From: Spirochaetales bacterium
GTDB taxonomy: Bacteria > Spirochaetota > Spirochaetia > Sphaerochaetales > Sphaerochaetaceae
Assembly: GCA_018433865.1 (NCBI GenBank)
Contig: JAHDQJ010000027.1
Coordinates: 1 to 62,063 of the forward strand
DNA: 62,063 nt
Reading direction: 5' to 3'
Shown: positions 36,917 to 56,164 of the stretch, piece by piece
How the letters are laid out: the number at the start of each line of letters is the position of its first letter
How positions within the stretch are numbered: the first letter of the stretch is position 1
The notes under the pieces: model-generated
Told to the model about the DNA's origin: nothing
What the model saw: the letters and a program-made list of their open reading frames with translations, nothing else
Database searches by the model: none
Translations under genes and position numbers: made by a program

Positions 36917-38296
36917 GTGCACAACCATACACTGATTCGCAAAGCCAAGGCAGTCGTCACCTGCGATGCTGCCGATCACATCCTTCACGATGTGGACATC
37001 AGGATCGAAGAGGGAAAGATCACCCGAATCGGAGCAGGTCTCGATCCGATCGGGTGTGAGATCATCGACGCGTCCCATTCGTTCGTCTACCCCGGGCTGA
37101 TCAACACGCATCATCACTTCTTCCAGACGTTCGTCCGCAACCTGATGAGCATCGATTATCCGAACATGCTGGTCGTCGAGTGGCTCGACCGCATCTACCG
37201 CGTGTTCAAGGAGATCGATTCCGATGTCATCTACCACTCTTCGCTTACCGCGATGGCCGATCTGGTGAAACATGGGTGCACCTGTGCGTTCGATCATCAA
37301 TACTGCTACACCAAGAAGACCGGGACATCGCCAGTCGATCGTCAGATGGAGGCGGCAGGCACAATCGGATTGCGCTATCACGCGGGAAGAGGATGCAACA
37401 CACTCCCACGCAGCCAAGGAAGCACCATACCGGACGAAATGCTTGAGACCACCGACGCTTTCCTCGCCGATTGCGAGCGCCTGATCGATGCCTATCATGA
37501 ACCCGATCCGTTCGGCATGCATCGGATCGTCGTCGCTCCGTGCCAGCCGATCAACAGCCATCCGCATACCTTCATCGAATCGGCAGCGTTTGCACGGGAC
37601 AAGCATGTCCGGCTGCACACGCATCTCGGAGAGGGAGAGAATCCGATCATGAAAGCACGCCACGGGAAGAGAACCCTCGCGTGGTGCGAAGAGATCGGGT
37701 TCGTGGGACCCGATGTATGGTTCGCCCACGCGTGGGAACTTGATGCACAGGAACATGCAGTCCTCGCTGCAACGGGTAGCGGCGTATCACACTGTCCCGC
37801 TCCTGCGACCTTGGGCGGGTTCCCCATCCTCGACATCCCCGGGATGCTGGAGAAGAGCGTCCCGCTCAGCCTCGGATGCGACGGATCGGCGACGAACGAC
37901 AGTTCGAACCTGCTCGATTCATTGCGCATGGCCTACCTGATGCAAGCATTCCACGGGAAAAGCCGCAATCGGGTCCCCTCGCCCTACGAGATGCTCAAGA
38001 TAGCCACCGTCGGAGGGGCACAAGCCCTGGGGAGGAGCGAACTCGGCTCGTTGGAAGTCGGAAAGGCTGCCGACCTCTTTTTCGTGGATGTCGACATGCT
38101 GGAACTCTGCGGAACCTTGCACGACCCGGCAAACCTGATCGCCCGCGCAGGAGTCTGCGGTCCTGTCGAACGGACGATCGTGGCGGGAAAGACGGTCTGG
38201 GAGCATGGCAGGTTTCCCACATTGGATGAGCGGGAGCTTGCACGTGAGGGAAATCGCATCTGTACCGAAAGGATGGCTCCCCATTTCCCTCTCTGA
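36917..38296 (+). CDS. Amidohydrolase, 8-oxoguanine-deaminase/TrzA-like
   Basis: A 459-residue metal-dependent hydrolase of the amidohydrolase superfamily (ATZ/TRZ group), deaminating a purine or related ring. Metal ligands are present: H-H-H-F in N-T-H-H-H-F-F-Q near residue 66, the H in L-H-T-H-L-G-E-G near 235-242, F-A-H-A-W near 274 and L-G-C-D-G-S near 325. This pattern and length match 8-oxoguanine deaminase and hydroxydechloroatrazine hydrolases. GTG at 36917 follows GGGAGG. The BMP-type ABC importer directly downstream supports a purine substrate, by inference. Confidence 0.8.
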   Translation: MHNHTLIRKAKAVVTCDAADHILHDVDIRIEEGKITRIGAGLDPIGCEIIDASHSFVYPGLINTHHHFFQTFVRNLMSIDYPNMLVVEWLDRIYRVFKEIDSDVIYHSSLTAMADLVKHGCTCAFDHQYCYTKKTGTSPVDRQMEAAGTIGLRYHAGRGCNTLPRSQGSTIPDEMLETTDAFLADCERLIDAYHEPDPFGMHRIVVAPCQPINSHPHTFIESAAFARDKHVRLHTHLGEGENPIMKARHGKRTLAWCEEIGFVGPDVWFAHAWELDAQEHAVLAATGSGVSHCPAPATLGGFPILDIPGMLEKSVPLSLGCDGSATNDSSNLLDSLRMAYLMQAFHGKSRNRVPSPYEMLKIATVGGAQALGRSELGSLEVGKAADLFFVDVDMLELCGTLHDPANLIARAGVCGPVERTIVAGKTVWEHGRFPTLDERELAREGNRICTERMAPHFPL

Positions 38297-38345
38297 ACGA
38301 TTGATCGCTATCACCGGGGGAATCCCCGTGAAGAGGAGAATACAT

Positions 38346-39344
38346 ATGAAGAGGATCGCAATCGTGCTGTTCGTCGCACTGGCAAGCATCGGATGCTTGT
38401 TCGCAACCGGCGCCGCGGAGAAGCAAGCGGATGATGCCATGAAGGTAGCCTTGCTGCTCTCGGGACCGGCGAATGACCAGGGATGGAATGCCGTCGCATT
38501 CGCGGGACTGAAGGAAGCCGAGGCGAAGTATGGTCTGCAGACAGCCTACTCCGAACACGTCGGCATCGCAGATGGCGAAGCCGCGTTCACCGACTATGCA
38601 TCCCAAGGGTATGATTTGGTGATCGGACACGGATTCCAGTTCGGCGATCCCGCCGTGCGTGTCTCCGGCCGGTTCCCGAATACCAAGTTCATGGCGATCG
38701 AGTCCAATGTCCATTCGAAGAACGCCGCATCGTATGTGATGGCCTGTGAGGAAGCGGGGTACCTGATGGGCATGCTTGCGGCTTCGATGACAAAGACAGG
38801 GAAGATCGGCATGGTGGGAGGTTTCGAACAACCTTCGATCGTGAAGGTCGTCGAAGCCTACAAGCTCGGAGCTGCTGCAGTGAACCCGGGCGTGCAAGTG
38901 TTCGAAGCCTATGTCAGCAGCTTCACCGATGTCGCACTCGGCAAGGAGGCGGCCATTGCGATGGCTGACCGCGGTGCGGATGTACTCTCCCATGTGGCGA
39001 ACCAGGCGGGAACGGGGGTGATCAAGGCAGCCGAAGAACGCGGGTTGCTGGCGACCGGCGACTCCTACGACCAGAATTCCATAGCACCCGCCACGGTGAT
39101 GTGCTCCACCATCTACAGCGTCCCGATGCTGGTGCTCAATGCAGTCGAGAAGGTGAAGAACGGCACGTACGAGGGCGGAGTCTTCTACCTCGGCATGCAA
39201 GACGGTGTGGTTGACATTGCACCGTACAATTCGTTCGAACAGAAGATACCCACTGCGGTGAAGGATCTGATCACGAAGACGAAAAACTCGATCCTTGACG
39301 GAAGCCTCAAGATCCCGATGATCGAGACGCCGACCGCAAAATGA
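38346..39344 (+). CDS. BMP/PnrA-family substrate-binding lipoprotein
   Basis: A 332-residue lipoprotein of the BMP/PnrA family, the nucleoside-binding component of ABC importers. The lipobox A-S-I-G-C puts the lipidated Cys at residue 17. The mature protein has V-A-L-L-L-S-G-P-A-N-D-Q-G-W-N, G-Y-D-L-V-I-G-H-G-F-Q-F, and K-I-G-M-V-G-G in family order. AGAGGAG precedes ATG 38346. It follows the deaminase by 49 bases and is followed by ATPase and two permease genes, forming a complete importer. Confidence 0.93.
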   Translation: MKRIAIVLFVALASIGCLFATGAAEKQADDAMKVALLLSGPANDQGWNAVAFAGLKEAEAKYGLQTAYSEHVGIADGEAAFTDYASQGYDLVIGHGFQFGDPAVRVSGRFPNTKFMAIESNVHSKNAASYVMACEEAGYLMGMLAASMTKTGKIGMVGGFEQPSIVKVVEAYKLGAAAVNPGVQVFEAYVSSFTDVALGKEAAIAMADRGADVLSHVANQAGTGVIKAAEERGLLATGDSYDQNSIAPATVMCSTIYSVPMLVLNAVEKVKNGTYEGGVFYLGMQDGVVDIAPYNSFEQKIPTAVKDLITKTKNSILDGSLKIPMIETPTAK

Positions 39345-39398
39345 GGAAAGGCGGGGAATCGGTGCTTCCGGTTCCCCGTTTCCCGTGAGGAGTTCTCG

Positions 39399-40916
39399 AT
39401 GACCCGACTGCGCATGCGCAACATAAGCAAAAGTTTTTTCGGTTCCTATGCGAACCACGAGGTGTGCCTCGATGTGGACAGTGCTGAGATACACGCACTC
39501 CTCGGAGAGAACGGTGCGGGCAAGACCACTCTCATGAACATCCTCTACGGAATCTATCGAAAGGATGGCGGGACGATCACGATCGACGGTGAAGAGGTGG
39601 ATTTCAAGAGTCCCAAGGAGGCGATCGCACGCTCCGTGGGGATGGTCCACCAGCACTTCACCTTGGTACCGACCCTCACCGTGCAGCAGAACATCACCCT
39701 CGGACTGAAAGATGCAGGATATCCATGCTCACGGGAGCGCCAGCGTTGCGCGCACATCGCACGGCTTGCAACGTCGTATGGGTGGAAGATCGATCCGTCG
39801 GCCTTGGTACGGGAGCTCTCGGTCGGCGAGATGCAGCGGGTCGAGATACTGAAGCTTCTGTACAGGAACGCACGTGTGTTGATCTTCGATGAACCGACTG
39901 CGGTCCTGACCATGCAGGAATCGGCCCAACTCTTCGAAATGTTCAAGCTCCTGAAGGCTCAGGGTTGTTCGATCATTGTCATCACCCATCATATCCAGGA
40001 GGTCCTGGAGCACTGCGACCGGGTCACCGTGCTCCGTGACGGCAAGTCGATCGGGACCGAGAGGATTGCCGATGTCGATGCCAAGCGTCTTTCCAGCCTG
40101 ATGATCGGCAGGGATCTTGTACCTGTGGCCCGCGAACGTGACCGAAAGGGCTCCGGCGAGACGATCCTGGAACTTGCAGGATATGGGTTTGCCCGTTCGG
40201 GAACCAAACGGGGAAGCGTAGACCTCTCGTTGGACCGTTCGGAGATCGTGGGTATCGCAGGTGTCGACGGTAATGGGCAGAAAGAGTTGCTCGAGACGTT
40301 GATGGGGTTGCGAGACCACGTATCGGGGAACGCCTTTTTCAAAGGCAAGGACATCTCGATGCTTTCCACTGCCCAGAGGAGGACCATGGGCATCAGCTAT
40401 ATCTCCGATGACCGGCACCACGACTCGCTGGTGCTGGACATGGGAGCGGCACAGAACATGATGTTGCGCCCGGGTGCGCTCTGCGAGACAGTCACGCATC
40501 ATCTGATCGACCGCAGGAAGATGCATCGGCTGGCGGCCGAGGCTGTCGAATCCTATGGGATCAAGACACAAGGAATTTCGGAACCCATGCGCTTCCTCTC
40601 GGGTGGGAACCAGCAGAAATTGGTCCTCGCCAGGGAACTTGCCGGCCGGCCGGATCTCATCATCGCGTTCCAGCCGACACGGGGCCTGGACATCGGTGCC
40701 ACCGAGTTCATCCATCATACGCTCTTGCGCATGCGGGATGCCGGTTCGGCTACGCTTCTGGTCAGTACGAACCTCGAGGAGATTCTCCTGTTGAGCGACC
40801 GTATCGCAGTCATGCACGAAGGGATGATCACGGGTATCATCGATAACGACTCGCCTGACATCATGCGCATCGGCCTGATGATGGCGGGAATCGATTGCCA
40901 GGGGGAAAAGACATGA
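39399..40916 (+). CDS. ABC importer ATPase, nucleoside type with two ATPase domains
   Basis: A 505-residue protein with two fused ABC domains, as in ribose and nucleoside importers (NupA/YufO). First domain: Walker A G-E-N-G-A-G-K-T-T near 35-43, signature L-S-V-G-E-M-Q-R near 145, Walker B V-L-I-F-D-E-P-T. The second domain has a degenerate Walker A (G-V-D-G-N-G-Q-K-E) and signature L-S-G-G-N-Q-Q-K, as is normal for these proteins. It overlaps the next gene by 4 bases. Confidence 0.93.
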   Translation: MTRLRMRNISKSFFGSYANHEVCLDVDSAEIHALLGENGAGKTTLMNILYGIYRKDGGTITIDGEEVDFKSPKEAIARSVGMVHQHFTLVPTLTVQQNITLGLKDAGYPCSRERQRCAHIARLATSYGWKIDPSALVRELSVGEMQRVEILKLLYRNARVLIFDEPTAVLTMQESAQLFEMFKLLKAQGCSIIVITHHIQEVLEHCDRVTVLRDGKSIGTERIADVDAKRLSSLMIGRDLVPVARERDRKGSGETILELAGYGFARSGTKRGSVDLSLDRSEIVGIAGVDGNGQKELLETLMGLRDHVSGNAFFKGKDISMLSTAQRRTMGISYISDDRHHDSLVLDMGAAQNMMLRPGALCETVTHHLIDRRKMHRLAAEAVESYGIKTQGISEPMRFLSGGNQQKLVLARELAGRPDLIIAFQPTRGLDIGATEFIHHTLLRMRDAGSATLLVSTNLEEILLLSDRIAVMHEGMITGIIDNDSPDIMRIGLMMAGIDCQGEKT

Positions 40917-41932
40917 GGCGTTGGCTTTCCATGGTATGGACAGGGGGAGCTACGTTGGCCGTGGCGATCATACTCATCGTACTGGTCGGCAGTGATGTGC
41001 CACTCGCCGTGATGAGCTTCCTCAAGGGAATATTCGGCTCGACCTATGCCTTGAGCGAGGTCGTGGTGCGGGCCACCCCGCTCATGCTCGCCGGGTTGGG
41101 AGTGTCGGTCGGGTTCAAGACCGGCTTCACCAACCTCGGGGCAGAGGGACAGATCTATGCAGGAGCAATCGCGATGAGCGCCACCGCGATGCTGTTCCCC
41201 TCTCTTCCGGCACCGCTCATGATACCCTTGGTGATCGTGGTGGGATTTGTCGCCGGAGGAGCCTGGGCGCTGCTTCCGGGAATCCTGAAAGCACGTTTTG
41301 CGATCAGTGAAGTCATCATGACGATCATGCTCAACTACGTGGCGATCAACTTGACGGGAGTACTGGTGAGGACCGCGCTGAAGGATCCGTCATACCCCTA
41401 CCCCATGTCTCCCATGCTCAGCAACACATCTGATTTCGTACAACTGTTTCCCCCGACCCGGATCCACGGTGGCATCATCCTGGCATTGCTTGCCCTCCTG
41501 GCAGTCCATGTGCTGCTCTTCCGATCCCGTTTGGGATTCGAGATGCGTGCAGTGGGGCTGAACAGCAGGGCCTGTGCATGCAGTGGGATCGCGGTCAACC
41601 GTGCACTGATCATCAGCGCGATAGTCGGTGGAGGGCTCGCGGGACTTGCCGGAGTGAGTGAGATCGCAGGCTTGCACCATCGCCTCATCGAGGGAATCAG
41701 CAGCGGATTCGGGTATGTCGCGATCATCGTCGCGTTGCTCGGGAAGAACAATCCGGTAGGGATCGTGTTCGCATCGCTTGGCATCGCGGCATTGCAAGTC
41801 GGTTCGATGGCCATGCAGCGTGCGGCGAAGGTTCCTACCTCGATCGCATCGATCATCATGGGAACGCTCATCCTCCTGTTGGTAATCAGGGATGCCAAGC
41901 GCTCCGTCTCCATGCCGGAAGGGGGTGCATGA
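40913..41932 (+). CDS. ABC importer permease (nucleoside type, NupB/YufP-like)
   Basis: A 339-residue inner-membrane permease of the BPD_transp_2 family with about nine to ten hydrophobic segments. The motif G-A-E-G-Q-I-Y-A-G-A near residue 78 and G-L-N-S-R-A-C-A-C-S-G-I near 220 are characteristic. The start codon overlaps the ATPase stop (ATGA). Partner of the following permease. Confidence 0.92.
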   Translation: MRRWLSMVWTGGATLAVAIILIVLVGSDVPLAVMSFLKGIFGSTYALSEVVVRATPLMLAGLGVSVGFKTGFTNLGAEGQIYAGAIAMSATAMLFPSLPAPLMIPLVIVVGFVAGGAWALLPGILKARFAISEVIMTIMLNYVAINLTGVLVRTALKDPSYPYPMSPMLSNTSDFVQLFPPTRIHGGIILALLALLAVHVLLFRSRLGFEMRAVGLNSRACACSGIAVNRALIISAIVGGGLAGLAGVSEIAGLHHRLIEGISSGFGYVAIIVALLGKNNPVGIVFASLGIAALQVGSMAMQRAAKVPTSIASIIMGTLILLLVIRDAKRSVSMPEGGA

Positions 41933-41935
41933 AAG

Positions 41936-42871
41936 ATGGAACTGTTGTTGTTGCTCGTGACATTCCTCGCAGCCTCGATTCGCATGGCGATCCCTCTCGC
42001 TCTCGCAGGTCTCGGTGAAAGCATCTCGGAAAAGAGTGGATTGTTGAACATCGGAGTAGAGGCAATCATGCTCTGCGGTGCGTTCTTCAGTTTCATGGCA
42101 GTCTTTGCCACCGGCAGCTTTTTCCTCGGCATGGTGGGGGGAGTGTTCGGCGGCGTATCGATGAGCATGATCCACGCGCTGCTGTCCATCCGGTTCAAGG
42201 CCAACCAGACGATCGTAGGGCTCGCACTGAACTTTCTTGCCCTCGGATTGACCAGTTTCCTTTTCCTGATGAGTTTCGGACAGACCACGACCCTCCCCTC
42301 GACTGCAGTGATGGCCGCGATACGGCTTCCCCTTCTTTCGGCGATACCGGTGGTCGGCGAGCTGTTGTTCACGCAGAATCTCTTCGTCTACCTCACCATC
42401 GCGTGCATGGTCATCACGCACTTTGTCTTTTTCAAGACCGATTTCGGTGTCGCATTGCACGCGGTCGGAGAACACCCCATCGCTGCCGACACCGCGGGAA
42501 TCTCGGTCACTACGGTCCGCTATGTCGCGGCGCTTCTCAACGGAATGCTCGGAGGACTCGGAGGGGCATACCTCACCATCGTGAAGCTGGGATTCTTCCA
42601 GGAGAACTTGACTGCAGGCAAGGGGTATATCGCGCTGGTGACCGTCATTCTCGGCAAACGAACCCCGTTCGGCGTCCTCGGGGCAGCCTTGATCATCGGA
42701 GGAGCGGAAGCCCTGCAGATCCGGTTGCAGACCGCAGGGACGAACATTCCCTCCCAACTCTTCGCAATGTTTCCCTACCTCATGACGATCCTCGCACTGC
42801 TGCTGACCATCGGATCATCCGGAGATCCGGCGGCACTGGGCACTCCCTATGACCGGAACAGACGCGGTTGA
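41936..42871 (+). CDS. ABC importer permease (nucleoside type, NupC/YufQ-like)
   Basis: A 311-residue second permease of the same importer, with about eight to nine membrane segments and the motifs G-I-E/V-E-A-I-M-L-C-G-A-F near residue 37 and V-G-E-H-P-I-A-A-D-T-A-G-I near 178. It starts three bases after the preceding stop. It ends 16 bases from the convergent putative peptidase gene; no terminator is visible in that space. Confidence 0.92.
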   Translation: MELLLLLVTFLAASIRMAIPLALAGLGESISEKSGLLNIGVEAIMLCGAFFSFMAVFATGSFFLGMVGGVFGGVSMSMIHALLSIRFKANQTIVGLALNFLALGLTSFLFLMSFGQTTTLPSTAVMAAIRLPLLSAIPVVGELLFTQNLFVYLTIACMVITHFVFFKTDFGVALHAVGEHPIAADTAGISVTTVRYVAALLNGMLGGLGGAYLTIVKLGFFQENLTAGKGYIALVTVILGKRTPFGVLGAALIIGGAEALQIRLQTAGTNIPSQLFAMFPYLMTILALLLTIGSSGDPAALGTPYDRNRRG

Positions 42872-42887: not shown

Positions 42888-44069
42888 TCACATCCAAGGC
42901 GCACCAAGGAATCCTTCCAGCGAATGCATCCTCCCATAGAGATAGGTGATGAAATCTCCGAATCGTTCCTTGGGAGTATGCAGGCGCACCTCACGTACTG
43001 CTTGGTTCCCATGATAATAGGAAGCGTTGAATGGTCCGCGATAGATATGCTTGGCTTGGGTGATGCGACCATCCACATAGGGATTGATTGCAAATCCCGT
43101 TTCCTTGATATACCGGACGACCGATTGCTCATCCTCTCCCAATTGCATCAATTTCCAGGAAGCAGTGGTGGCGACCGCGATACGCAACCTTCGCAGGGCG
43201 ATCTGGATGACATCGTCATCATCCTCCACCCAATCGATGATCTCGGTAGCTTGGTCGCCGATCCCTTCCTGGATCACCCCGGGTATTCCGTTCAAGGTAC
43301 ACAGCAGGACATCCGCACTCGCGTTCCCCTTCCGATAGGCATCCGCCGTATAGAGCAGCTGTGTCGCATGTCCGGGGAAGTTCTCGTGAGTCACCAGGTG
43401 TTTCAATGCCGCACGGGTACATCCGATGTCTGTGTTGATCTCCATGGTCTTCCCGAGGAAGTTGCACCTGCCCGCAGCATGTGTGCCTGAAGTCAGCACC
43501 AATTCCATCCGGAAATCACCCACATCGAACACCCGCTGTGCGGTCCTGCGTACCGCCTCCTCTTGCAGCATACGGTACTCGGATTCCAGTTTTTCCACCG
43601 GGATGAACTTGCTGCCCTGCCAGGATTGCACCCGCTCGGCCAAGGATCCCCTGATGATATTCCGCCTGGTGAGCGCACGATCGATCTCCTCACGGAGTTC
43701 CTCGATCACCTTTTCATCGGCGGGACCTGCCGGAACTCCCACAAGATGTTCCAACCGATAGGCGAACGAAGTGGGTTCTCCCCGGAATACTTTGATGGCT
43801 GCTCGCAGCGAACGGACCAGCGCTTCGAGAAATGATTTCCGCGTGTCCAGGGGACACTCCCCAATCTTTGCGGTTATCGCAGCGAGATCTCGCTGGGCCT
43901 CTGTCCAATCGGCGTACCGATTCGGTTCCACCAGATCTTCACCGGTATAGATCGGGATCAATCCTTCGGTGTCGAGCGCTTTGCCACCCTGCTGCAGCCG
44001 ACGCTCCAATGCATTCATTCCCAACGCGATCGCGGTAATGTCGTATCCGACCTGCATGTCATCGTACAT
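42888..44069 (-). CDS. HExxPGH-type (DUF885-like) putative metallopeptidase, copy 1
   Basis: A 393-residue cytoplasmic protein. The motif H-L-V-T-H-E-N-F-P-G-H-A-T-Q (HExxPGH) near residues 236-245 is the zinc-binding motif typical of DUF885-type putative peptidases, which are usually 550-600 residues; this is a short form. Conserved blocks shared with the adjacent copy include L-E-H-L-V-G-V-P-A, T-R-A-A-L-K-H-L-V, S-A-D-V-L-L-C-T-L-N-G-I and G-V-I-Q-E-G-I-G-D-Q. The E in Q-E-G-I may be the third ligand. Start codon shares one base with the preceding stop (TGATG). Catalysis is inferred. Confidence 0.7.
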   Translation of the reverse strand: MYDDMQVGYDITAIALGMNALERRLQQGGKALDTEGLIPIYTGEDLVEPNRYADWTEAQRDLAAITAKIGECPLDTRKSFLEALVRSLRAAIKVFRGEPTSFAYRLEHLVGVPAGPADEKVIEELREEIDRALTRRNIIRGSLAERVQSWQGSKFIPVEKLESEYRMLQEEAVRRTAQRVFDVGDFRMELVLTSGTHAAGRCNFLGKTMEINTDIGCTRAALKHLVTHENFPGHATQLLYTADAYRKGNASADVLLCTLNGIPGVIQEGIGDQATEIIDWVEDDDDVIQIALRRLRIAVATTASWKLMQLGEDEQSVVRYIKETGFAINPYVDGRITQAKHIYRGPFNASYYHGNQAVREVRLHTPKERFGDFITYLYGRMHSLEGFLGAPWM

Positions 44070-45277
44070 CAGCGGTCTCCATGACTGCGGTATGCAACAC
44101 CGGTGGCGAGGCAGAGACTTTCGGGAGCGTGCATGTTGCCGTACAGTTCATCGATGAACAATCGTCTCCGTTTCGGATCATGTTCCACTGCGAGCCGGAC
44201 ACGTCTCACCGCTTCGTTCCCATAGAAATAGGAACTGATGAATCCGCTGCGGAAGGGGTGCCTGGCCATGTGGATCCTTCCTTTGATCCTCGCATCTTGC
44301 ATCGCCCCCACATCCCGCATGTAGGCGTACGCCTGAGCATCCGTGATCCGCTCCATGTTGATCTTCCATGCCGCTTGTGTGGCTACGGAACTCTGATACC
44401 GTCGCAACAGCGCCTGGATCTCGTCATGCACATCCTCGATCCAATCGATCAGCTCGACACCTTGGTCGCCGATGCCTTCCTGGATGACCCCGGTGATTCC
44501 GTTGAGACTGCACAGCAGCACATCTGCCGATGCGGTCCCCTGCTTGAAACTGCGCAGCGTGTAGATGTTCTGCGTCGAGTGGCCGGGAAAGCATTCGTGT
44601 GCCACCAGGTGTTTCAGTGCTGCCCGTGAGAAGCGGTTGTCCACATTGATGTCCATCTTGCCGCCGCTGAAGTTGCATCTTGCGGAAAAATGGGTGTTCC
44701 GTACCGGATTGAGGACCATCGTGTAGCCTTCCGTATCCACGATCATCCGATCGGTGCGCTCCTGTGCTTCGGCCATCAGCTCGCCGAATACCTTTTCAAG
44801 GTGCTCGGGTTCTATCGCGCCGCTCTGTTCCCAAGCCAAGATTTTGTCCCTGACCGTGCCTGTCGAGAATCCTGCACGGTCCAATGCTTCTTCGAGACGT
44901 GAGGCCAGATCCCCAATGAAACTGTCCTCCAAGGATTCGGCAGGCACTCCCACCAATTTCGTGAGCTTGTCAACGAACGGGGCATCCCCTCCCTGGAACA
45001 GCATCGATGCCATCCGCAACGAATGCATCAGCTTTTCCAAGAACAATTTCCTCGGTCCTTGCCCCAGCTTTCCGACAGAAGCCGCCGCCTCTTCGATCGC
45101 ATGGTCGACCTCTTCCCAGCTGCGAAAGTCCCGCTCGTCGATCAGGTCCTTGCCGAGGTAGAGGGGAATGAGTCCTTCATCGTCGATGATTCCTTTTCCC
45201 TTGAAGACCTTGCGTTCAAACGAATCCAGACCTGCTGCGATCGCCGTGATTTCGTAACCGAGTTCCTTGGTGTCCAT
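44069..45277 (-). CDS. HExxPGH-type (DUF885-like) putative metallopeptidase, copy 2
   Basis: A 402-residue paralogue of the next gene, alike over the full length: D-E-G-L-I-P-L-Y, L-V-G-V-P-A, S-R-A-A-L-K-H-L-V, H-E-C-F-P-G-H-S-T-Q and G-V-I-Q-E-G-I-G-D-Q occur in the same order. Tandem duplication followed by divergence is the simple explanation. No signal peptide, so a cytoplasmic role on imported substrate fits. ATG 45277 has GGGAG upstream. It is first of a two-gene unit whose promoter region carries the palindromes also seen at the ABC importer promoter. Confidence 0.7.
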   Translation of the reverse strand: MDTKELGYEITAIAAGLDSFERKVFKGKGIIDDEGLIPLYLGKDLIDERDFRSWEEVDHAIEEAAASVGKLGQGPRKLFLEKLMHSLRMASMLFQGGDAPFVDKLTKLVGVPAESLEDSFIGDLASRLEEALDRAGFSTGTVRDKILAWEQSGAIEPEHLEKVFGELMAEAQERTDRMIVDTEGYTMVLNPVRNTHFSARCNFSGGKMDINVDNRFSRAALKHLVAHECFPGHSTQNIYTLRSFKQGTASADVLLCSLNGITGVIQEGIGDQGVELIDWIEDVHDEIQALLRRYQSSVATQAAWKINMERITDAQAYAYMRDVGAMQDARIKGRIHMARHPFRSGFISSYFYGNEAVRRVRLAVEHDPKRRRLFIDELYGNMHAPESLCLATGVAYRSHGDR

Positions 45278-45419: not shown

Positions 45420-46232
45420 ATGGGAACAGGAATGTTTGATTTCTCGGGAGAGACGATCCTCGTCTCCGGCTCCGCCCGCGGCATAGGCCGGACGATGGTG
45501 TTGCAGTTTTCCAAAGCGGGAGCCCGGGTGATCGCGGTCGATCGCGATGCACAAGGATTGTCGGAGACCCAGTCGCTCTGCCGGTCCTGCATCACCAGGA
45601 CCGTGGATATCCGCGACATCGATGCAGTGACGAATCTCATGGGATTCATCAAGGAGCACTGTGCTACGTTGCATGTGTGCATCAACAACGCCGCCGTTGC
45701 TCCCCACCAAAGCCTGGAGACCTATCAGGAGAAAGTCTGGGACCGTGTCTACGACGTCAACTGCAAAGGCACCTTCCTCATGACCCAGGCTGCAGGCAAC
45801 TTGATGCGTGAGACCGGGACCAAAGGAACCATCATCAACTTCTCGTCCGCCGCAGCAGTCAAGAGCGGGGCGGGAAGCGCGGCGTATGCTTCCAGCAGGG
45901 CGGCGACGGAGGCGTTCGGAAGAAGCGCCGCGATCGAGTTCGCCCCCTACGGCATCCGGGTGAACACGATCAGGCCGGGATTGATCGACACCCAACCGAA
46001 ACCGCTTCCTCCCGCGATGCGCGAGGGTCTGGAAGCTCGGATTCCCACGCTCCCGTTCCGACGGGCAGGGCATAGCGAGGAAGTGGGAAACGTGGCCCTG
46101 TTCCTTGCCTCCTCCCTCGCTTCCTATATCACCGGCTCGGTGATAACCGTGGATGGGGGATCCCTTTGTGGCAACTATCCCGATTCCAAGGTTACTGATG
46201 ATGATACCCGTTACCGCTGGATCTACGACTGA
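45420..46232 (+). CDS. Short-chain dehydrogenase/reductase
   Basis: A 270-residue classical SDR oxidoreductase using NAD(P). The cofactor motif appears as S-G-S-A-R-G-I-G (TGxxxGIG type) near residues 16-23, N-N-A-A-V near 86, catalytic Ser in I-N-F-S-S-A-A-A-V and the Y-A-S-S-R-A segment where the usual YxxxK has Arg in place of Lys. The C-terminal L-A-S-S-L-A-S-Y-I-T-G-S-V-I-T-V-D-G-G is typical. The Lys-to-Arg change may alter activity. GGAGG precedes the ATG. It overlaps the 3' end of the DUF885 gene by 10 bases. Confidence 0.85.
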   Translation: MGTGMFDFSGETILVSGSARGIGRTMVLQFSKAGARVIAVDRDAQGLSETQSLCRSCITRTVDIRDIDAVTNLMGFIKEHCATLHVCINNAAVAPHQSLETYQEKVWDRVYDVNCKGTFLMTQAAGNLMRETGTKGTIINFSSAAAVKSGAGSAAYASSRAATEAFGRSAAIEFAPYGIRVNTIRPGLIDTQPKPLPPAMREGLEARIPTLPFRRAGHSEEVGNVALFLASSLASYITGSVITVDGGSLCGNYPDSKVTDDDTRYRWIYD

Positions 46233-47902
46233 CCGTCGAGATCCGCGAGCATCTCTTGTGCGATGCGGGATACGGGAACGGTGCCGTAGGAGAGGAACTC
46301 GTCATGGAACCGCTGCAGCGAGAAATCCGTACCCAACCTGCGGGCGACTTCATCGCGCAATGCTTCTATCTGCTCGACGCCGTACAGATACATGATCGCC
46401 CCGCCGGGGAACAGACTGTTCTTCACCGCCTCGCCGTGAGCCGCGGCCCCTGGCATCTTCGCATATTCCCGATAATAGGCTTCGGCATCCTCGATGCTGT
46501 ACTGTCCGGTGTGCAACCGGATATCCACTACGGCACGCGCTGCCATGCGTCGTCTGGATGACAATTCAGCATACAATTCAAGCGGTTCCAAGAATCCCCG
46601 GTGCCCTGCAAGTTCCGAGATATAGCATGCCCACCCTTCACAGAGTGTACCGCCGCACAACATCGTGAGACGCGCCGGACCATCGTTCGCCGCAACCTGC
46701 GCGATCCGCGAACGGGAACGGACTGCATTGTAGTTCTGCACGTGATGACCGATGCCACCGTGGTGGAGGACATGGTTGGTCTTGATGACAAACGTATTGT
46801 TGGCTCGCAAGAACTCCTCTTGCAATGACGCTGTCTCTTCCAGCGGATACACATGGTACCGATACGTAGGCGGCTTGTGCCACCGTGGAGGACAACGGTA
46901 GAAGAGGAAATAGAGGTACGGTTGCACATTCCTCGCCCACAACGGAATCGGTTGATACTCGATGGGATTATCGTCCCACGTGACCAAGCGTTCCCGCTCA
47001 TTGAGCTTCCTGCTCGCCTCCCACAACTCTCCGTAGCTTGACAGGTATCCTTCGGCATCAGGATGTGCATCACGCAACCGTGCGAGGGCAACTTCCGGGG
47101 TAGTGCAACCGAACTGCGGAGCCTGTGATTCCAGTGCGGCGCTGCACTGCCGGATGATCTGCTCCGCATGTGCCGCGTACGCGTGCAGATCGAAATCTTG
47201 ATCAATCCCATGAGCCCAACCGAGTATGTTCCGGAACGCGGTCTTTCCACAACCGGTATACTCCAATGGTTTGTCTGACAGGTCCTCTTCCAAGAAGCGG
47301 GAGAATCCTTCGCACGCCTCGATGGCTGCCGACCGGCAGTTCGGATCAACGGCCAACCCCTCCTGGGCAATCAGATGATCCAGTCCTTCGCCAAGGAATA
47401 GCAAGGTGCCTGTGCACTCCTTGATCGCACGTTCGGTCCATGCGTGCGGAGCTTGCACGAGGTTCTGTCTCGCATCCGCATAGAACCGTGGCAAACCGCT
47501 GAGCCTGGCATGGAAATCGGATTGTTTCTCCGGCACCGGCCGAAAGTCCGAGAGGAACGGCGAGAGCAATGCGAACGCTGCCTCCCCGGTATAGGTGACC
47601 GGATTGCATCGGTACATGATCCCGTCGTCCCGTTCCCACCCTTGCATGAGGAGAAACCCCTTGGCAAGGTCGTAGTCGATGCGTTGGAACTTGTCCAACG
47701 CATCGCGATCGATTTCCGAGAGACGCCTGAGCAATCCGTCGATCTCTTCCCTTGTTTCTGCCAACCCTTCCCCGCTCATGTCCGGAAGCATCGCGTTGTA
47801 CTCACGCAAACCGGCAAAGGTTGCGTCAACGGGGCGCCTTGCGAACATGTGCACGAAAAAATCATCCGACCACTGTGAAAACCGACTCTCGATCTCTGTC
47901 AT
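46223..47902 (-). CDS. DUF885-family protein with degenerate zinc motif
   Basis: A 559-residue protein of DUF885 length. The family HExxPGHH motif appears as H-H-G-G-I-G-H-H (about residue 387), so the catalytic Glu is His and the Pro is Ile, while the downstream C-E-G-W-A-C-Y-I-S-E-L matches the conserved E-G-W-A block that supplies the third ligand. Three His remain, so a metal may still bind, but peptidase activity is doubtful. ATG 47902 follows GGGAG. Last gene of the long operon, 23 bases after the Gfo/Idh/MocA gene. Confidence 0.75.
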   Translation of the reverse strand: MTEIESRFSQWSDDFFVHMFARRPVDATFAGLREYNAMLPDMSGEGLAETREEIDGLLRRLSEIDRDALDKFQRIDYDLAKGFLLMQGWERDDGIMYRCNPVTYTGEAAFALLSPFLSDFRPVPEKQSDFHARLSGLPRFYADARQNLVQAPHAWTERAIKECTGTLLFLGEGLDHLIAQEGLAVDPNCRSAAIEACEGFSRFLEEDLSDKPLEYTGCGKTAFRNILGWAHGIDQDFDLHAYAAHAEQIIRQCSAALESQAPQFGCTTPEVALARLRDAHPDAEGYLSSYGELWEASRKLNERERLVTWDDNPIEYQPIPLWARNVQPYLYFLFYRCPPRWHKPPTYRYHVYPLEETASLQEEFLRANNTFVIKTNHVLHHGGIGHHVQNYNAVRSRSRIAQVAANDGPARLTMLCGGTLCEGWACYISELAGHRGFLEPLELYAELSSRRRMAARAVVDIRLHTGQYSIEDAEAYYREYAKMPGAAAHGEAVKNSLFPGGAIMYLYGVEQIEALRDEVARRLGTDFSLQRFHDEFLSYGTVPVSRIAQEMLADLDGQS

Positions 47903-47925
47903 GCTTTGTATCTCCCGATATGTGA

Positions 47926-49095
47926 TCACATCTCCGAATGGTGAACCCAACGCTTCTCATAATGTGCGGTACTGGCCATGTTGATGACTTTCTGCACACG
48001 TGCGCTCTGTATGAAGTTTCCTTGGTTCACGCTGCCACCGGAGACTATTTCCTCCATGAAGTTGTGGATCAGGCACGCGTAGAAGACCTGGTCCCACGAC
48101 TGACCTTCCTCGTATGCGGGTGGGAAGAACTTCCGGGGGATCGGCATGTCGACATACTCGACCGCATCGGGCTTCGCACCCTTGAGCGTCTGGATCACGC
48201 CGAATTCCTCAACCAGCCTGACTTGGAGACCGCCTTGCGAACCATAGATGCGCGCTTCGATTCCCGGGTAGTTGCCGACGGTCACGATGCTCGACTGCAA
48301 GGAGAACATGGTACCGTTCATCCCCTCTGCGATGAAGATGTCAGCATCATCCACGTTGATCCTGGAATACTCGGTATCCAGATTGGTCAACCTCCTGTGC
48401 TTGACCATGTTGGCCATGATGCAACTGACACGCTCCAAGTCCGATCCGATCAGCTCCAACCCGATATCGATCGTGGGAGCGCCATATCCTTCGAGACTGA
48501 ATATGCCGATTCCTTCGGGAGTCAGGTCCTTGTGGAATGAGGGGGGCGTACTCGGATAGACACGATGGATGCGTTTGTCCATGGGATAATCCGGGCTCAA
48601 CCATTGTGAGTTCTGCTCGTATCCGTTGTAGACAAACGGATCGCCGATAAATCCGTCCCTGACCAACTCGAACATGTATTGGACCGCGGGGGCATACCGG
48701 AACGTAAGTCCCACCTTTGTCTTGAGATTCTTGCTGTCCGCAAGCTCTTGTGCCCGGATCACATCCTTGTAATCGTGGCAGACCGGCTTCTCCACCAGCA
48801 CGTGCTTTCCCGCCTCGAGCGCCTGGAATGTAAGCACTTCATGGCTGTTGTCGAACTGGTCTCCCGCTCGGGTCACCACATCGATCACATCGATGTCCTC
48901 ACGTTGCAACATGCGCTGGTAATCGGTATAGACATCGGGGATCCCGAACTTCGCCGCGGCATCCTTTGCCAAATCCTCATGCAGGTCGCTGATGGCCACG
49001 ATGTCACACAACGGCGAACCGACATATCCAGGCAAGTGAGCACGTTGACACCAGCGGCCCGCTCCGATCACCCCTACTCTCAGTTTCTCTCTCAT
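47926..49095 (-). CDS. Gfo/Idh/MocA-family oxidoreductase
   Basis: A 389-residue NAD(P)-dependent dehydrogenase. The Rossmann motif G-V-I-G-A-G-R-W is at about residues 7-14 and the family signature V-L-V-E-K-P-V-C-H-D-Y near 95-105. The C-terminal domain is the usual alpha/beta Gfo/Idh/MocA fold. These enzymes oxidise or reduce sugars, inositols and related polyols; some act on amino-sugars or opine-like compounds. ATG 49095 has AAGGAG six bases upstream. Substrate unknown. Confidence 0.88.
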   Translation of the reverse strand: MREKLRVGVIGAGRWCQRAHLPGYVGSPLCDIVAISDLHEDLAKDAAAKFGIPDVYTDYQRMLQREDIDVIDVVTRAGDQFDNSHEVLTFQALEAGKHVLVEKPVCHDYKDVIRAQELADSKNLKTKVGLTFRYAPAVQYMFELVRDGFIGDPFVYNGYEQNSQWLSPDYPMDKRIHRVYPSTPPSFHKDLTPEGIGIFSLEGYGAPTIDIGLELIGSDLERVSCIMANMVKHRRLTNLDTEYSRINVDDADIFIAEGMNGTMFSLQSSIVTVGNYPGIEARIYGSQGGLQVRLVEEFGVIQTLKGAKPDAVEYVDMPIPRKFFPPAYEEGQSWDQVFYACLIHNFMEEIVSGGSVNQGNFIQSARVQKVINMASTAHYEKRWVHHSEM

Positions 49096-49132: not shown

Positions 49133-49681
49133 TCATCGGACAGCCCGTATCAGTTCCTCCACCTGCAATCGTGACACTTGTTGTGGTTGCACAGCAGGTC
49201 TCCCGACCGGCAACAACAACAGGGGAGTCAACTCAGCAGGTATCCCCAGCACATCCTTCAGCCGCCCTGCGTCGAAGCCGATCACACAGGTAGTGCCCAA
49301 TCCCAATGCGGTGGTCGCAAGCATCATGTTCTGGGCGACACCCATGCAATCAAGCTTGCTCATGTCTGTCCGTCCCTTGTCTCCGTATCGAGCTCCCATG
49401 CGGCGCCGATCATAGCAGATGACGATGATGACATCCGCACGTGAGACCCACCGTTGAGTCAGCACGGTTCCCCGGGAGGTGATTCCTGCATCCGTGGTCG
49501 CGGCGACAGCCTCGCGACCTTCGGGACTTCGTACGATGACGAACTCTCTCGCTTGCATGTTGCCTGCCGATGGCGCATGAGTGCCTGCCTCGAGGATTGC
49601 GTACAGCTCCTTGTCGCTTACCGCCTCGTCGGTGAACTCACGGATGCTTCTGCGTTCGCGCATGCATGAAAACACATCCAC
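49133..49681 (-). CDS. Nitroreductase-family FMN protein
   Basis: A 182-residue flavin oxidoreductase-like protein. M-R-E-R-R-S-I-R-E-F near the N-terminus is the FMN-phosphate motif, followed by A-G-T-H-A-P-S-A-G-N-M-Q and, later, G-L-G-T-T-C-V-I-G-F. The start is uncertain. I prefer GTG 49681, because AGGAG (inside the end of the previous gene) lies nine bases upstream and the gap to the previous stop is four bases; ATG 49708 would overlap that gene. Could reduce an imported substrate or a pathway intermediate. Confidence 0.78.
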   Translation of the reverse strand: MDVFSCMRERRSIREFTDEAVSDKELYAILEAGTHAPSAGNMQAREFVIVRSPEGREAVAATTDAGITSRGTVLTQRWVSRADVIIVICYDRRRMGARYGDKGRTDMSKLDCMGVAQNMMLATTALGLGTTCVIGFDAGRLKDVLGIPAELTPLLLLPVGRPAVQPQQVSRLQVEELIRAVR

Positions 49682-49685
49682 TTCG

Positions 49686-50279
49686 TCACACTCCTGATCC
49701 GAGGCCATCGGCATCCCATCGCACATACTCGTCAAGGTACAACCGAGGCCTCCTTTTGGGCTCTGTCGCCATGTGCCCGATTGCCAGCAGCAGTACGGGA
49801 TCCATGTGCGATGGCAACGAGAACAGTCGACAGACCGCATCCGGGTCGAATTCCCTGATGATGGTTCCCCCGATTCCAAGTCGCTTGCCTGCCTGGAACA
49901 TGCACGCAACCGCCATCCCGATATCCATCAAGGCGAATCGGTTGGCACCGACAGGCCCGCTCTTTGCGTTCGCACGCAGCCTGTTCATCAGGACCGTGAG
50001 GATCACGGGAGCTTGTCCGAACCACGAAACCTCCTGTGCCCCAGGAGGAATCGGGCGAAACTGCACATCAAGCAACGTACCTGCCACATGCATTTTCGCC
50101 TCAGCATCGACAGTCACGATGAACTCCCATGGTTGACAGTTGGCGATCGAAGGAGCGTATCCGGCCGCTCCCAGGATTTCCCGCATCTCATCGGGGGTGA
50201 CGGGGGTATCGAGGAACGTATCCACTCCGTCAAGGAATCCTGGATTCATGGCCTGCGCGGCACCTTCCGTACCATTCAT
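49686..50279 (-). CDS. Second nitroreductase-family protein
   Basis: A 197-residue protein resembling nitroreductases: A-G-Y-A-P-S-I-A-N-C-Q-P-W-E-F near residues 39-53, M-D-I-G-M-A-V-A-C-M near 117, and G-I-G-G-T near 135. The usual N-terminal R-R-S-I/V-R FMN-phosphate motif is missing; the protein starts with an unrelated short stretch, so cofactor binding may be altered or shared with the neighbouring subunit. Its ATG overlaps the ThDP-enzyme stop (ATGA), and the next nitroreductase starts four bases after its stop. Heterodimer formation is a possibility. Confidence 0.72.
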   Translation of the reverse strand: MNGTEGAAQAMNPGFLDGVDTFLDTPVTPDEMREILGAAGYAPSIANCQPWEFIVTVDAEAKMHVAGTLLDVQFRPIPPGAQEVSWFGQAPVILTVLMNRLRANAKSGPVGANRFALMDIGMAVACMFQAGKRLGIGGTIIREFDPDAVCRLFSLPSHMDPVLLLAIGHMATEPKRRPRLYLDEYVRWDADGLGSGV

Positions 50280-51898
50280 TTGTGCTTCCTCAGGATCAAC
50301 GGCTCATATTCGCTCTGGTCGACGATCGCATGCACGATCACCGGACCTTCGGCTGCAAAGGCCTGTTCCAACGCGATCCGGAAGGAATCGGCAGTAGCGG
50401 CACCAAGGACCGGGACGCCGAACATGTTGTTGGGCACCGGCGGTTGCTCATCACTCAAGGTCGTACCCTCGGTGATCTTGCCACGTTTCTTCTGCTTGAG
50501 GCGGATGAGTTCGAGCTTGGTATCGGAGAGGACGATGAACACGATGTTCATGCCGATCCGGCGTGCGGTGGCCATCTCTCCCGCCATCATCATGTATCCG
50601 CCGTCACCCGTGATGCAGACCACCGGAACCTCAGGGCGTGCAAGCTTGGCTCCAAGTGCCGCGGGAATACCGAAGCCCATCGAGGACCATCCATTGGTCA
50701 TCAATTGCCCGAACGGATGTCTCGTTCGCCATGCCTGTCCGATCAAGTGGGTATGCGCACCGACATCGCATGTCATGATGCCCTCGTCAGGCAACAGCTC
50801 ACGAAGGATCTTCAGGACACTCAAGGGACCGAACACCCCGGCCTTGGGTTCAAACCGGGCGAACATTGCCTCACGACGTTCACGCAATGCCTGCATGTCC
50901 CACCCGAACGACATCGGCCCGAGAGCCGACAGGCGCTTAAGTGCACACACGGGATTGCCCACCACATCACAGACCTTCGCATACGTCTTGCGGTCTATAT
51001 CACACGCGACGGTATCGATATGGATCAGGGGAACCACGGGCATCCACGATTCATAGTTGAACTCGACCGGGTCGTATCCGACGGCGATGATCAGGTCAGC
51101 TTGCACGTTTGTCTGCGCGACCACATCGCTGAGGGCGTGGAACAGGACTCCCGCGTAGCTGCGATGGTCCTCATCGATCAACCCTTTGGCCATCGGCGTC
51201 AGGACGACCGGGACATCAAACTGCTCTGCAAGCTTGACGATCTTCTCTCCAAGATCGAACCGGATCGCAGTCAATCCCACGGCCAACAAGGGCTTGCGGG
51301 ATTGCTTCACCAACCGTTCCATGTCGATCAGGGCGGACTCGTCGGGATCCGAAGGCATCGCCGGCTTGGAGACCTTGGGCAACGCACCGGTGATCCGCAT
51401 GTCTCCCAATCCTTCGGGAAGACCGATGTGGACCGGGCCGGGGACCTCAGCCGACGCGGTCTCGAACATGTCGGCCAGCGCTTCGGCAGCCTGGTCCGCC
51501 TGCAAGCGGATCGTCTTCTTGGTCAGCGGCTTGAACAGCGTCTGATGGTCGATGGCCATCTGGGTTGTCCGCCCCATCATATGGTTGGGCGGTTCGGTTG
51601 TCAGCGCGATCAGGGGTGCGCGATCCAGCAGGGCGCTGCCCACACCGGTGGACAGGTTCGTGGCACCCGGTCCGGTCGTTCCGTAACACACTCCCGGGAC
51701 GCCGGTCAGCCATCCGTAGACGGTCGCCATGAATCCTCCGCTCGCCTCATTCGCGACGAGGACATACTCCACATCGCCCTTCTCCATCGCTTCCATGTAT
51801 GACATCCAGTCACCGCTGGGGACACCGAATATATGTTTGACACCTTGCTCCTTGAAAAAAGCTGTCAGGTACTCCGAAAATCTCATGTCCTGTTCCAT
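50276..51898 (-). CDS. Thiamine-diphosphate-dependent enzyme (acetolactate-synthase/benzoylformate-decarboxylase-like)
   Basis: A 540-residue ThDP enzyme. The catalytic Glu is in V-A-N-E-A-S near residue 52, G-T-T-G-P-G-A-T-N near 74 follows, and the ThDP/Mg motif is G-D-G-G-Y-M-M-M-A-G-E...S-D-T-K near 443-475. It would decarboxylate or ligate a 2-keto acid. No acetolactate synthase regulatory subunit or branched-chain genes are adjacent, so a catabolic decarboxylase-type role within this operon is more likely. GGAGGAG precedes the ATG. Overlaps the next gene by 4 bases. Confidence 0.85.
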   Translation of the reverse strand: MEQDMRFSEYLTAFFKEQGVKHIFGVPSGDWMSYMEAMEKGDVEYVLVANEASGGFMATVYGWLTGVPGVCYGTTGPGATNLSTGVGSALLDRAPLIALTTEPPNHMMGRTTQMAIDHQTLFKPLTKKTIRLQADQAAEALADMFETASAEVPGPVHIGLPEGLGDMRITGALPKVSKPAMPSDPDESALIDMERLVKQSRKPLLAVGLTAIRFDLGEKIVKLAEQFDVPVVLTPMAKGLIDEDHRSYAGVLFHALSDVVAQTNVQADLIIAVGYDPVEFNYESWMPVVPLIHIDTVACDIDRKTYAKVCDVVGNPVCALKRLSALGPMSFGWDMQALRERREAMFARFEPKAGVFGPLSVLKILRELLPDEGIMTCDVGAHTHLIGQAWRTRHPFGQLMTNGWSSMGFGIPAALGAKLARPEVPVVCITGDGGYMMMAGEMATARRIGMNIVFIVLSDTKLELIRLKQKKRGKITEGTTLSDEQPPVPNNMFGVPVLGAATADSFRIALEQAFAAEGPVIVHAIVDQSEYEPLILRKHK

Positions 51899-51959: not shown

Positions 51960-53261
51960 TCAATTTTCGGTGTGAAAGAATTGTGTGAAGGCGGCGTACA
52001 CATACGCATTGTCACGTGTCCCACCGGTCTCCCGGATCGAGTGCATCGCCCACAGCGCGAGCCCAATGTCCACACCTCGCATGTCAGCATGCGTGATGGA
52101 ATCGGCACCGGCGGCGGATCCTCCGGGCGAATCGGCCCGATTGACGTAGTATTGCCAGGGGACCTTCGCTTCCTTGCAAATCTGCTGGAATACTGCGCTC
52201 GACTCACTGTTGGTGGTGAATTTCTGTGCACCACTCGACTTGATGACCACCCCACCGTTCAGCTTGGCTTGGACCACAGGGTCGCTTCGCTCCGGAACGT
52301 TCGGATGCACCGCATGGGACATATCGGCAGAAAGCATGAATGAGCGCTGCAGGGTACGGAAGTAATCCTCCCTATCTCCGCCCAATGCGAGCACGATCCT
52401 CTCGAGGACCGAGGAGAGCATCGGGGAGTCTCCCCCCTGACGGGTCCGGTTTCCGACCTCTTCGCTATCGAGACAACAGATGATCTGGGTCCCCTTGGTC
52501 TTCGAAGCATGCGCGAGCGCACAGACCGAAGCATAGAGCAGTCCGAGATTGTCCAGCTTTTTCGAACTGATGAACTCACGATCGGGCCCGAACACACATC
52601 CGCGCTCAAATTCGGAGGTATACAATTCATAGTCAAGGATTTCTTCTGGCTTGCACCCTATCTGGCGGGCCAACAGGTCAACCAGCTTGAGAGGATGCGA
52701 TCCATCTGTTTGTCCGAGAATCGGAATCATATCCTTCTGGGGATTGAGTTCCACCCCTGAATTGACACTCTTGTTGTGATGGATGCTCAGGTTGGGAATG
52801 TACACTTGCGGATCGGCAAACTCAACCAGCACCTGCTGAGGAGCCAGGGGCGATGTTCCGGCCAGGGAGACCCTGCCGGCCAGGGAGAGGGGACGATCGA
52901 GCCAGGTCGGGAGGATCGGCGACCCGTATACCTCTGCGTTCAGCTTGACGATGCCACCTGCGCCGGTCATTTCGGGATTGGGTTTGATCCGGATGGAGGG
53001 AGAATCGGTATGGGTCTGTATCAATCGGAACCCATCGGTCTCGACCTTCCCTGTCCCCACCGTGAATGCGATCAACGCAGAACCGTTCACCGTCACGAAG
53101 TAGCGTCCTCCCCGTTCGAGATCCCAACGTGCCGACTGGTCAAGTTCGACGAATCCAGCCGTTTGCAGGATTCCGACCGAGGAACGTACGACGTGGAACG
53201 GGCTCGGCGAAGCATGGATGAAATCGATGAGATCCTGTGCTAATGTCAGTGCGTCTTGCAT
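51960..53261 (-). CDS. apeB: M18-family aspartyl aminopeptidase
   Basis: A 433-residue zinc aminopeptidase that removes N-terminal acidic residues from peptides in the cytoplasm. Metal-binding segments are Q-T-H-T-D-S-P (about residue 79-85), C-L-D-S-E-E-V-G-N (about 262-270) and M-S-A-D-M-S-H-A-V-H-P near 310-318. Length and order match the family. AGAGG precedes the ATG at 53261. It begins 17 bases after the OppF-type ATPase gene, tying peptide uptake to peptide breakdown. Confidence 0.92.
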   Translation of the reverse strand: MQDALTLAQDLIDFIHASPSPFHVVRSSVGILQTAGFVELDQSARWDLERGGRYFVTVNGSALIAFTVGTGKVETDGFRLIQTHTDSPSIRIKPNPEMTGAGGIVKLNAEVYGSPILPTWLDRPLSLAGRVSLAGTSPLAPQQVLVEFADPQVYIPNLSIHHNKSVNSGVELNPQKDMIPILGQTDGSHPLKLVDLLARQIGCKPEEILDYELYTSEFERGCVFGPDREFISSKKLDNLGLLYASVCALAHASKTKGTQIICCLDSEEVGNRTRQGGDSPMLSSVLERIVLALGGDREDYFRTLQRSFMLSADMSHAVHPNVPERSDPVVQAKLNGGVVIKSSGAQKFTTNSESSAVFQQICKEAKVPWQYYVNRADSPGGSAAGADSITHADMRGVDIGLALWAMHSIRETGGTRDNAYVYAAFTQFFHTEN

Positions 53262-53278
53262 GGCTTTCCTCTTGTTCT

Positions 53279-55238: not shown

Positions 55239-55247
55239 GCCTAGTTC

Positions 55248-56147: not shown

Positions 56148-56164
56148 GTGCAATCTCCGTAACC

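Follow-up and report, generated by a model that had tools for sequence, protein, structure and literature searches.

What do the two short, overlapping genes A and B encode, and do their products act together or separately? The genes lie in the window, which is the whole stretch of 62,063 nucleotides analysed here. Our preferred answer, which we consider probable, is that the two products are zinc metallopeptidases located in the cytoplasm and belonging to a compact branch of DUF885, that they take part in a catabolic cluster for imported peptides, and that they have diverged in specificity. The pair and its motifs are located as follows.

44069 to 45277, minus strand: gene A, predicted compact DUF885-fold metallopeptidase, 402 residues (Pfam, AlphaFold model and fold match)
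42888 to 44069, minus strand: gene B, paralogue of A, 393 residues, its start sharing one base with the stop of A
44579 to 44599, minus strand: HECFPGH of A, containing H227, E228 and H233 (sequence and motif alignment)
44462 to 44491, minus strand: GVIQEGIGDQ of A, containing E267, the putative third metal ligand, opposite EGWA of DUF885 (profile alignment)
43368 to 43388, minus strand: HENFPGH of B (sequence)
43251 to 43280, minus strand: GVIQEGIGDQ of B (sequence)

Base 44069 is common to the stop of A and the start of B, within TGATG. GGAG is found 7 bases 5' of the ATG of B, inside the coding sequence of A, and AAAGGGAG is found 5' of the ATG of A at 45277 (both read directly). Because the latter sequence is ribosome-binding-like, this ATG was preferred over an upstream TTG as the start of A. 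Scans for promoters and terminators gave matches that were no more numerous than in shuffled sequences. The two proteins share 44% identity over 389 residues (BLASTP E 4e-109), and GVIQEGIGDQ is letter-for-letter the same in both. Together with their relatives they form the family designated SHORT, of which 16 of 18 sequences make up the alignment A5. HExxPGH and an EGI(G/A)D block, at a spacing of 40, are present in 18 of 18 aligned members, three of which (L026, L027 and L014) were chosen by HExxPGH and hold this motif by construction. The pair is no chance reading frame because two congeneric species and a marine spirochaete metagenome-assembled genome (MAG) carry the same two genes side by side and overlapping. 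The original prediction had described two neighbouring genes sharing one base, encoding paralogues with HExxPGH and GVIQEGIGDQ that are shorter than usual DUF885 proteins. The gene layout and motifs agree with this description to the base, and the length estimate was about right (393–402 residues, against 532 positions in the PF05960 model and 575 residues in LONG, the full-length homologue discussed below).

In the Pfam search against PF05960 (DUF885), A scored 32.7 bits, just above the gathering cut-off of 32.4, and B scored 13.2 bits, below it. Three of four plasmid relatives scored 20.9, 22.7 and 19.0 bits and the fourth gave no match, so that none reached the cut-off. Neither A nor B had an NCBIfam match or a match to the Pfam M32 profile at E up to 10, and no PDB sequence matched A, B or their profiles at E ≤ 0.01. 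The AlphaFold model of A, built from four sequences, has a pLDDT of 84.4 and a pTM of 0.86. The top five chains in a Foldseek search with this model are all DUF885 proteins (E 8.9e-8 to 7.9e-5), coming from three solved entries. In VIA-align, A matched 3iuk, 3o0y and 3u24 with Z values of 25.8, 25.6 and 23.4 over 355–368 residues, and the next family reached 13.8; the ranking after DUF885 consists of M3, MATCAP, M32 and ACE. The model of B is poor (pLDDT 58.9), but the same three entries are still the best (Z 15.6, 18.5 and 15.7), followed by MATCAP at 10.8.

The SHORT profile was also compared with nine canonical DUF885 proteins, namely all five matches above the cut-off other than our own and four of the 19 non-cluster plasmid records; the match in genome G192, which is under the cut-off (18.7 bits), was left out. 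The profile–profile alignment (probability 97.2%, E 4.7e-11) pairs HExxPGH with HExxPGH, QEGIG with EGWA, and Y350 and G353 with the invariant Tyr and Gly of DUF885. Because QEGIG is set against EGWA, GVIQEGIGDQ can be identified as the third metal-ligand block of DUF885. The alignment starts at SHORT column 113 (residue 99 of A) and DUF885 column 276, indicating that the residues absent from SHORT are mostly those of the N-terminal half.

A thus has the DUF885 fold over its whole length, the HExxPGH motif, the Glu-Gly third-ligand block and the C-terminal Tyr/Gly pair. In contrast to DUF885 proteins, which have about 530 residues or more, A and B (402 and 393) are shorter by about 130–175 residues, mostly before residue 100 or so of A, B is under the Pfam cut-off, and no lipoprotein-type N-terminus is seen in either. 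The downstream EGWAxY block is absent as well, its Glu-Gly being retained as EGI(G/A)D and the remainder being different in 18 of 18 SHORT sequences. DUF885 is assigned to the Peptidase_MA clan in a passage of PMC12572635, in which its predicted zinc site is His-His-Glu. From the fold, the profile–profile comparison and the marginal Pfam match of A, we conclude that A and B are a compact, unnamed branch within DUF885 and not a new family. The "separate, little-described peptidase family" of the original prediction is little-described, as neither NCBIfam nor PDB sequences match it, but these three lines of evidence deprive it of its separateness. The profile search and structure prediction that had been suggested for distinguishing DUF885 from M32 favoured the former, with Z values for A of 23–26 against 12–13. 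A peptidase family unrelated to DUF885 is ruled out by the fold and profile comparisons, and membership in M32 is ruled out by the motif spacing (His residues six apart) and the absence of a Pfam M32 match.

The more distant fold relatives differ from A in several respects. M32 carboxypeptidases (1k9x, 3hq2, 3hoa and 5giv) belong to the same broad metallopeptidase fold class (Z 12.0–12.7), but they have HExxH spacing where A and B have HExxPGH. M3/PZ peptidase and oligoendopeptidase F, which also carry HExxH, are similar in fold class (Z 12.0–13.8), but their identity is 6–9% and their motif spacing is different. Because the two His residues are six apart in HExxPGH and four apart in the classic HExxH, the active-site geometry is not readable from a known enzyme. 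As judged from the fold, H227, H233 and E267 of A would hold the metal, E228 would be the general base, and Y350 would stabilise the intermediate. MATCAP (KIAA0895L tubulin carboxypeptidase) is compact and among the next nearest folds (Z 13.7 for A and 10.8 for B), but it is eukaryotic, its substrate is the microtubule, and the identity is 9–11% over the aligned part only. MATCAP is a metallocarboxypeptidase according to an excerpt of PMC10499314.

A and B close a long minus-strand run that starts with an Opp-type binding protein. The order in this run is binding protein, two permeases, two ATPases, M18 aminopeptidase, thiamine diphosphate (ThDP) enzyme, two nitroreductases, GFO, LONG, A and B.

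59234 to 59902, plus strand: GntR/FCD regulator, divergent from the operon
57223 to 58866, minus strand: Opp-type substrate-binding protein (nearest solved structure, AppA oligopeptide-binding protein 1xoc, 223 bits)
53279 to 57118, minus strand: Opp-type ABC transporter, two ATPases and two permeases
51960 to 53387, minus strand: M18 aminopeptidase (NF002759, 516 bits, cut-off 356)
50276 to 51898, minus strand: ThDP enzyme of the acetolactate-synthase superfamily (under every NCBIfam cut-off listed)
49686 to 50279, minus strand: nitroreductase-family protein 2
49133 to 49909, minus strand: nitroreductase-family protein 1
47926 to 49095, minus strand: GFO, Gfo/Idh/MocA dehydrogenase, linked partner
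46223 to 47950, minus strand: LONG, full-length DUF885 protein (Pfam, 193.7 bits), 575 residues, HHGGIGHH for HExxPGH
46745 to 46765, minus strand: HHGGIGH of LONG, the catalytic Glu position being His397
45420 to 46232, plus strand: SDR oxidoreductase between LONG and A

GFO, the ThDP enzyme and the binding protein match broad families only. The 3' end of the SDR gene overlaps that of LONG by 10 bases. Two adjacent nitroreductase genes were found only in the window's own genus (the window, L008 and L009), and not in the marine spirochaete locus L007 or the plasmid clusters. Positions 36917 to 42871 of the plus strand, convergent with gene B, probably form a separate purine uptake operon: an 8-oxoguanine-deaminase-like amidohydrolase comes first, a BMP/PnrA-type binding protein next, and then an ABC ATPase and two likely permeases, the ATPase and the permeases being assigned by eye. 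A recombinase-domain protein near the contig end (61420 to 62016, minus strand) is a possible sign of mobility.

The cluster was mapped by tblastn over 14 loci, comprising 12 with a SHORT protein of the main clade and two from Neorhizobium (L014 and L027, two of five such records). SHORT, GFO and LONG occur together in all 12 main-clade loci. Opp-type transporter genes are present in 11 of them, and the stretch of the twelfth (L008) stops within the ThDP gene. The ThDP enzyme is present and a ketopantoate-reductase-like gene absent in all four spirochaete loci, whereas the eight plasmid loci show the reverse. Five of the plasmid loci, from Deinococcus, additionally carry RraA, SDR, M29, IclR and M24 genes. 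In the two Neorhizobium loci, a distant SHORT protein is accompanied by a transporter, by M24 genes and by an amidohydrolase, and the stretch contains neither GFO nor LONG. When 72,556 plasmid records were searched with LONG, the same eight records were obtained as with SHORT (31–35% identity, query coverage of 92% or more). Searches limited to E 1e-40 again gave these eight, at 35–37% identity for GFO and at 70% or above for the ketopantoate-reductase-like protein, whose next match is at 35%. The co-occurrence in 12 of 12 loci and the agreement of the separate plasmid searches on the same eight records are strong evidence that the SHORT/LONG/GFO cluster is one functional unit that moved between phyla. 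Between the same spirochaete genomes, GFO is 84–95% conserved and SHORT or LONG 59–77% (for GFO, L007 4119–5285 versus window 47926–49095). In some plasmids, the ketopantoate-reductase-like and M24 genes look split, by frameshift or sequencing error (L011 6983–7880 and 14189–15405; L014 3032–5393).

Of everything at the locus, the linkage of LONG in this cross-phylum cluster is of greatest interest, and it lies outside the gene pair to which the original prediction was confined. Alignment of LONG with 3u24 places HHGxxGHH at the position of HEAIPGH in the solved structure. HHGxxGHH is found in 12 of 12 loci (11 of the 12 sequences form the LONG alignment A4), with His at the position of the catalytic Glu in all, and the putative metal-ligand positions H396, H402 and E438 (the Glu of EGWACY) are retained. 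By comparison, all nine other DUF885 proteins examined, of which four are plasmid-borne and five come from genomes of the window's phylum, have HExxPGH and EGWAxY. Because the Glu-less motif is strictly conserved, it is kept for a purpose rather than decaying. Two roles are conceivable for LONG, either as a partner of SHORT that does not cleave or as an enzyme that performs some other chemistry.

The strict conservation of HHGxxGHH and the constant company of SHORT and LONG, down to the same eight plasmid records, raise the possibility that the two are parts of one enzyme, in which SHORT provides the intact metal site and the Glu-less LONG binds the substrate or regulates, like the alpha subunit of mitochondrial processing peptidase. 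Pairs of active and inactive metallopeptidases have precedent in the section of PMC11266112 on mitochondrial processing peptidase (M16B), where an active metallopeptidase is paired with a catalytically dead homologue; this enzyme belongs to an unrelated family, however, and serves as a model for SHORT and LONG only. We regard a two-part enzyme as rather unlikely, given that the SHORT and LONG profiles resemble each other weakly (28%) and that LONG, with all three putative metal ligands, may itself be an enzyme of other chemistry. A broader and still tentative proposal is that a horizontally spread catabolic cluster of three phyla uses a split DUF885 system, consisting of a compact catalytic protein (doubled in spirochaetes) and a full-length HHGxxGHH homologue that still holds the metal, on a peptide-like compound outside known pathways; the homologue would be a pseudopeptidase subunit or would perform a new non-hydrolytic chemistry.

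The pair itself is narrowly distributed. Of 61 relatives, three have it, namely every genome examined from the own genus, with no match elsewhere. In a draw of 296 genomes from the phylum, in which the two congeners did not appear, the own genome was the only carrier. In the marine Spirochaeta MAG (L007), the two genes of the pair overlap by 8 bases; among 80 kin of its genome, it alone has the pair and the other 79 lack it. A spirochaete-wide family is ruled out by these three surveys. On plasmids, A matched eight records at 43–47% identity (42–47% for SHORT as a whole) among the 72,556 searched (five Deinococcus, two Ensifer and one Lichenicola), five distant Neorhizobium records (28–30%) and one weak Nocardia record. 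B matched the same eight and the same five Neorhizobium records, plus three weak actinobacterial ones. A scan of viral contigs yielded 34 pattern matches with no relative among them. The scan of genome contigs by exact short peptides found one relative; because it relies on such peptides, it may miss chromosomal copies in other phyla.

SHORT is single-copy in the Deinococcus, Ensifer and Lichenicola plasmid relatives. In the tree of all 18 SHORT sequences, A and B form separate clades (both 100/100) that are sisters to each other (98/96), and the single-copy Deinococcus and alphaproteobacterial sequences fall outside them. An old family-wide pair is ruled out by the sister clades and the single-copy relatives elsewhere, and the pair is, by this phylogeny, a duplication seen only in spirochaetes. 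There are 37 positions that are fixed differently in A and B and at which the outgroup has a majority residue; A is outgroup-like at 17 of these, B at 10, and neither at 10. This split fits a divergence of both copies, which we infer to be one of specificity.

The same data bear on the proposal, made in the original prediction, that A and B work as a heteromer. An obligate heteromer, supplied in equal amounts from overlapping genes, would agree with the adjacent, overlapping arrangement in four of four spirochaete loci with the 37 fixed differences, and with the retention of every motif residue in both copies. However, overlapping genes are frequent in bacterial operons, and the single-copy relatives evidently manage without a second short copy, which makes such an assembly improbable. 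A heteromer is in any case not intrinsic to the family, because the Deinococcus, Ensifer and Lichenicola members are single-copy and the duplication is seen only in spirochaetes. On our preferred reading, A and B, as spirochaete-specific duplicates, would have diverged in specificity.

No lipoprotein or signal-like N-terminus was seen in the sequences of A, B and LONG, and for this reason all three are probably located in the cytoplasm, where they would act once uptake is complete. The Opp-type ABC transporter would import a peptide-like compound; Opp-type binding proteins also include carriers of nickel, opines and sugars, and peptide uptake is read here from the transporter family only. The amide bonds would be cut by A and B and by an aminopeptidase dedicated to the cluster, which is M18 in the window and M29 together with M24 in Deinococcus. 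The released part would then be processed by dehydrogenases (Gfo/Idh, and elsewhere also the ketopantoate-reductase-like protein) and by a 2-oxo-acid-type enzyme (ThDP here, RraA in Deinococcus). The combination of M18, M29 and M24 peptidases with 2-oxo- or hydroxy-acid-type enzymes (ThDP, RraA, ketopantoate-reductase-like and Gfo/Idh) points to a small, peptide-like compound that has an unusual acid part. M32, ACE and MATCAP take off C-terminal residues. Because most of the nearest fold relatives whose activities have been named are carboxypeptidases, and because aminopeptidases are already supplied by the cluster, our best guess is that A and B would cleave at the C-terminal side, as carboxypeptidases.

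The composition of the cluster also allows A and B to be seen as non-peptidases, that is, as metal-dependent amidohydrolases or isomerases whose substrate would be a natural product other than a peptide, for example an opine-like or glycosyl-amino compound. Oxidoreductases are abundant in the cluster, the best solved relatives of GFO include DgpA and sugar dehydrogenases, opine-binding proteins are among the relatives of the transporter family, and an amidohydrolase adjoins the distant SHORT relative in Neorhizobium. However, the GFO–DgpA matches are weak (57–70 bits), and aminopeptidases of three unrelated families (M18, M29 and M24) recur in the clusters, which fits peptide bonds, so that we hold this possibility to be unlikely. 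The combination of an Opp transporter and aminopeptidases is frequent in nutrient acquisition and could also reflect general peptide scavenging without a special substrate. This is quite doubtful in view of the linked dehydrogenases and ThDP or RraA enzymes and of the very narrow distribution (three of 61 relatives, all of the own genus, one of the 296 drawn from the phylum and one of the 80 marine MAG kin). The peptidase function proposed above remains our preferred reading of A and B.

DUF885 structures have been solved since 2009, and searches of a paper library listed no paper describing the function of any DUF885 protein. A compact DUF885 protein in a small, well-defined cluster, with culturable carriers in Deinococcus and Ensifer, offers a practical route to a first DUF885 substrate. 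The conserved loss of Glu in LONG provides a clean test between a dead partner and a new kind of enzyme. Another DUF885 protein possibly adjoins a metabolite pathway, as an excerpt of PMC11479980 reports an iron experiment in Streptomyces scabies in which SCAB_1391 (DUF885) was measured with the putative salicylate synthase SCAB_1381 and PchE SCAB_1481.
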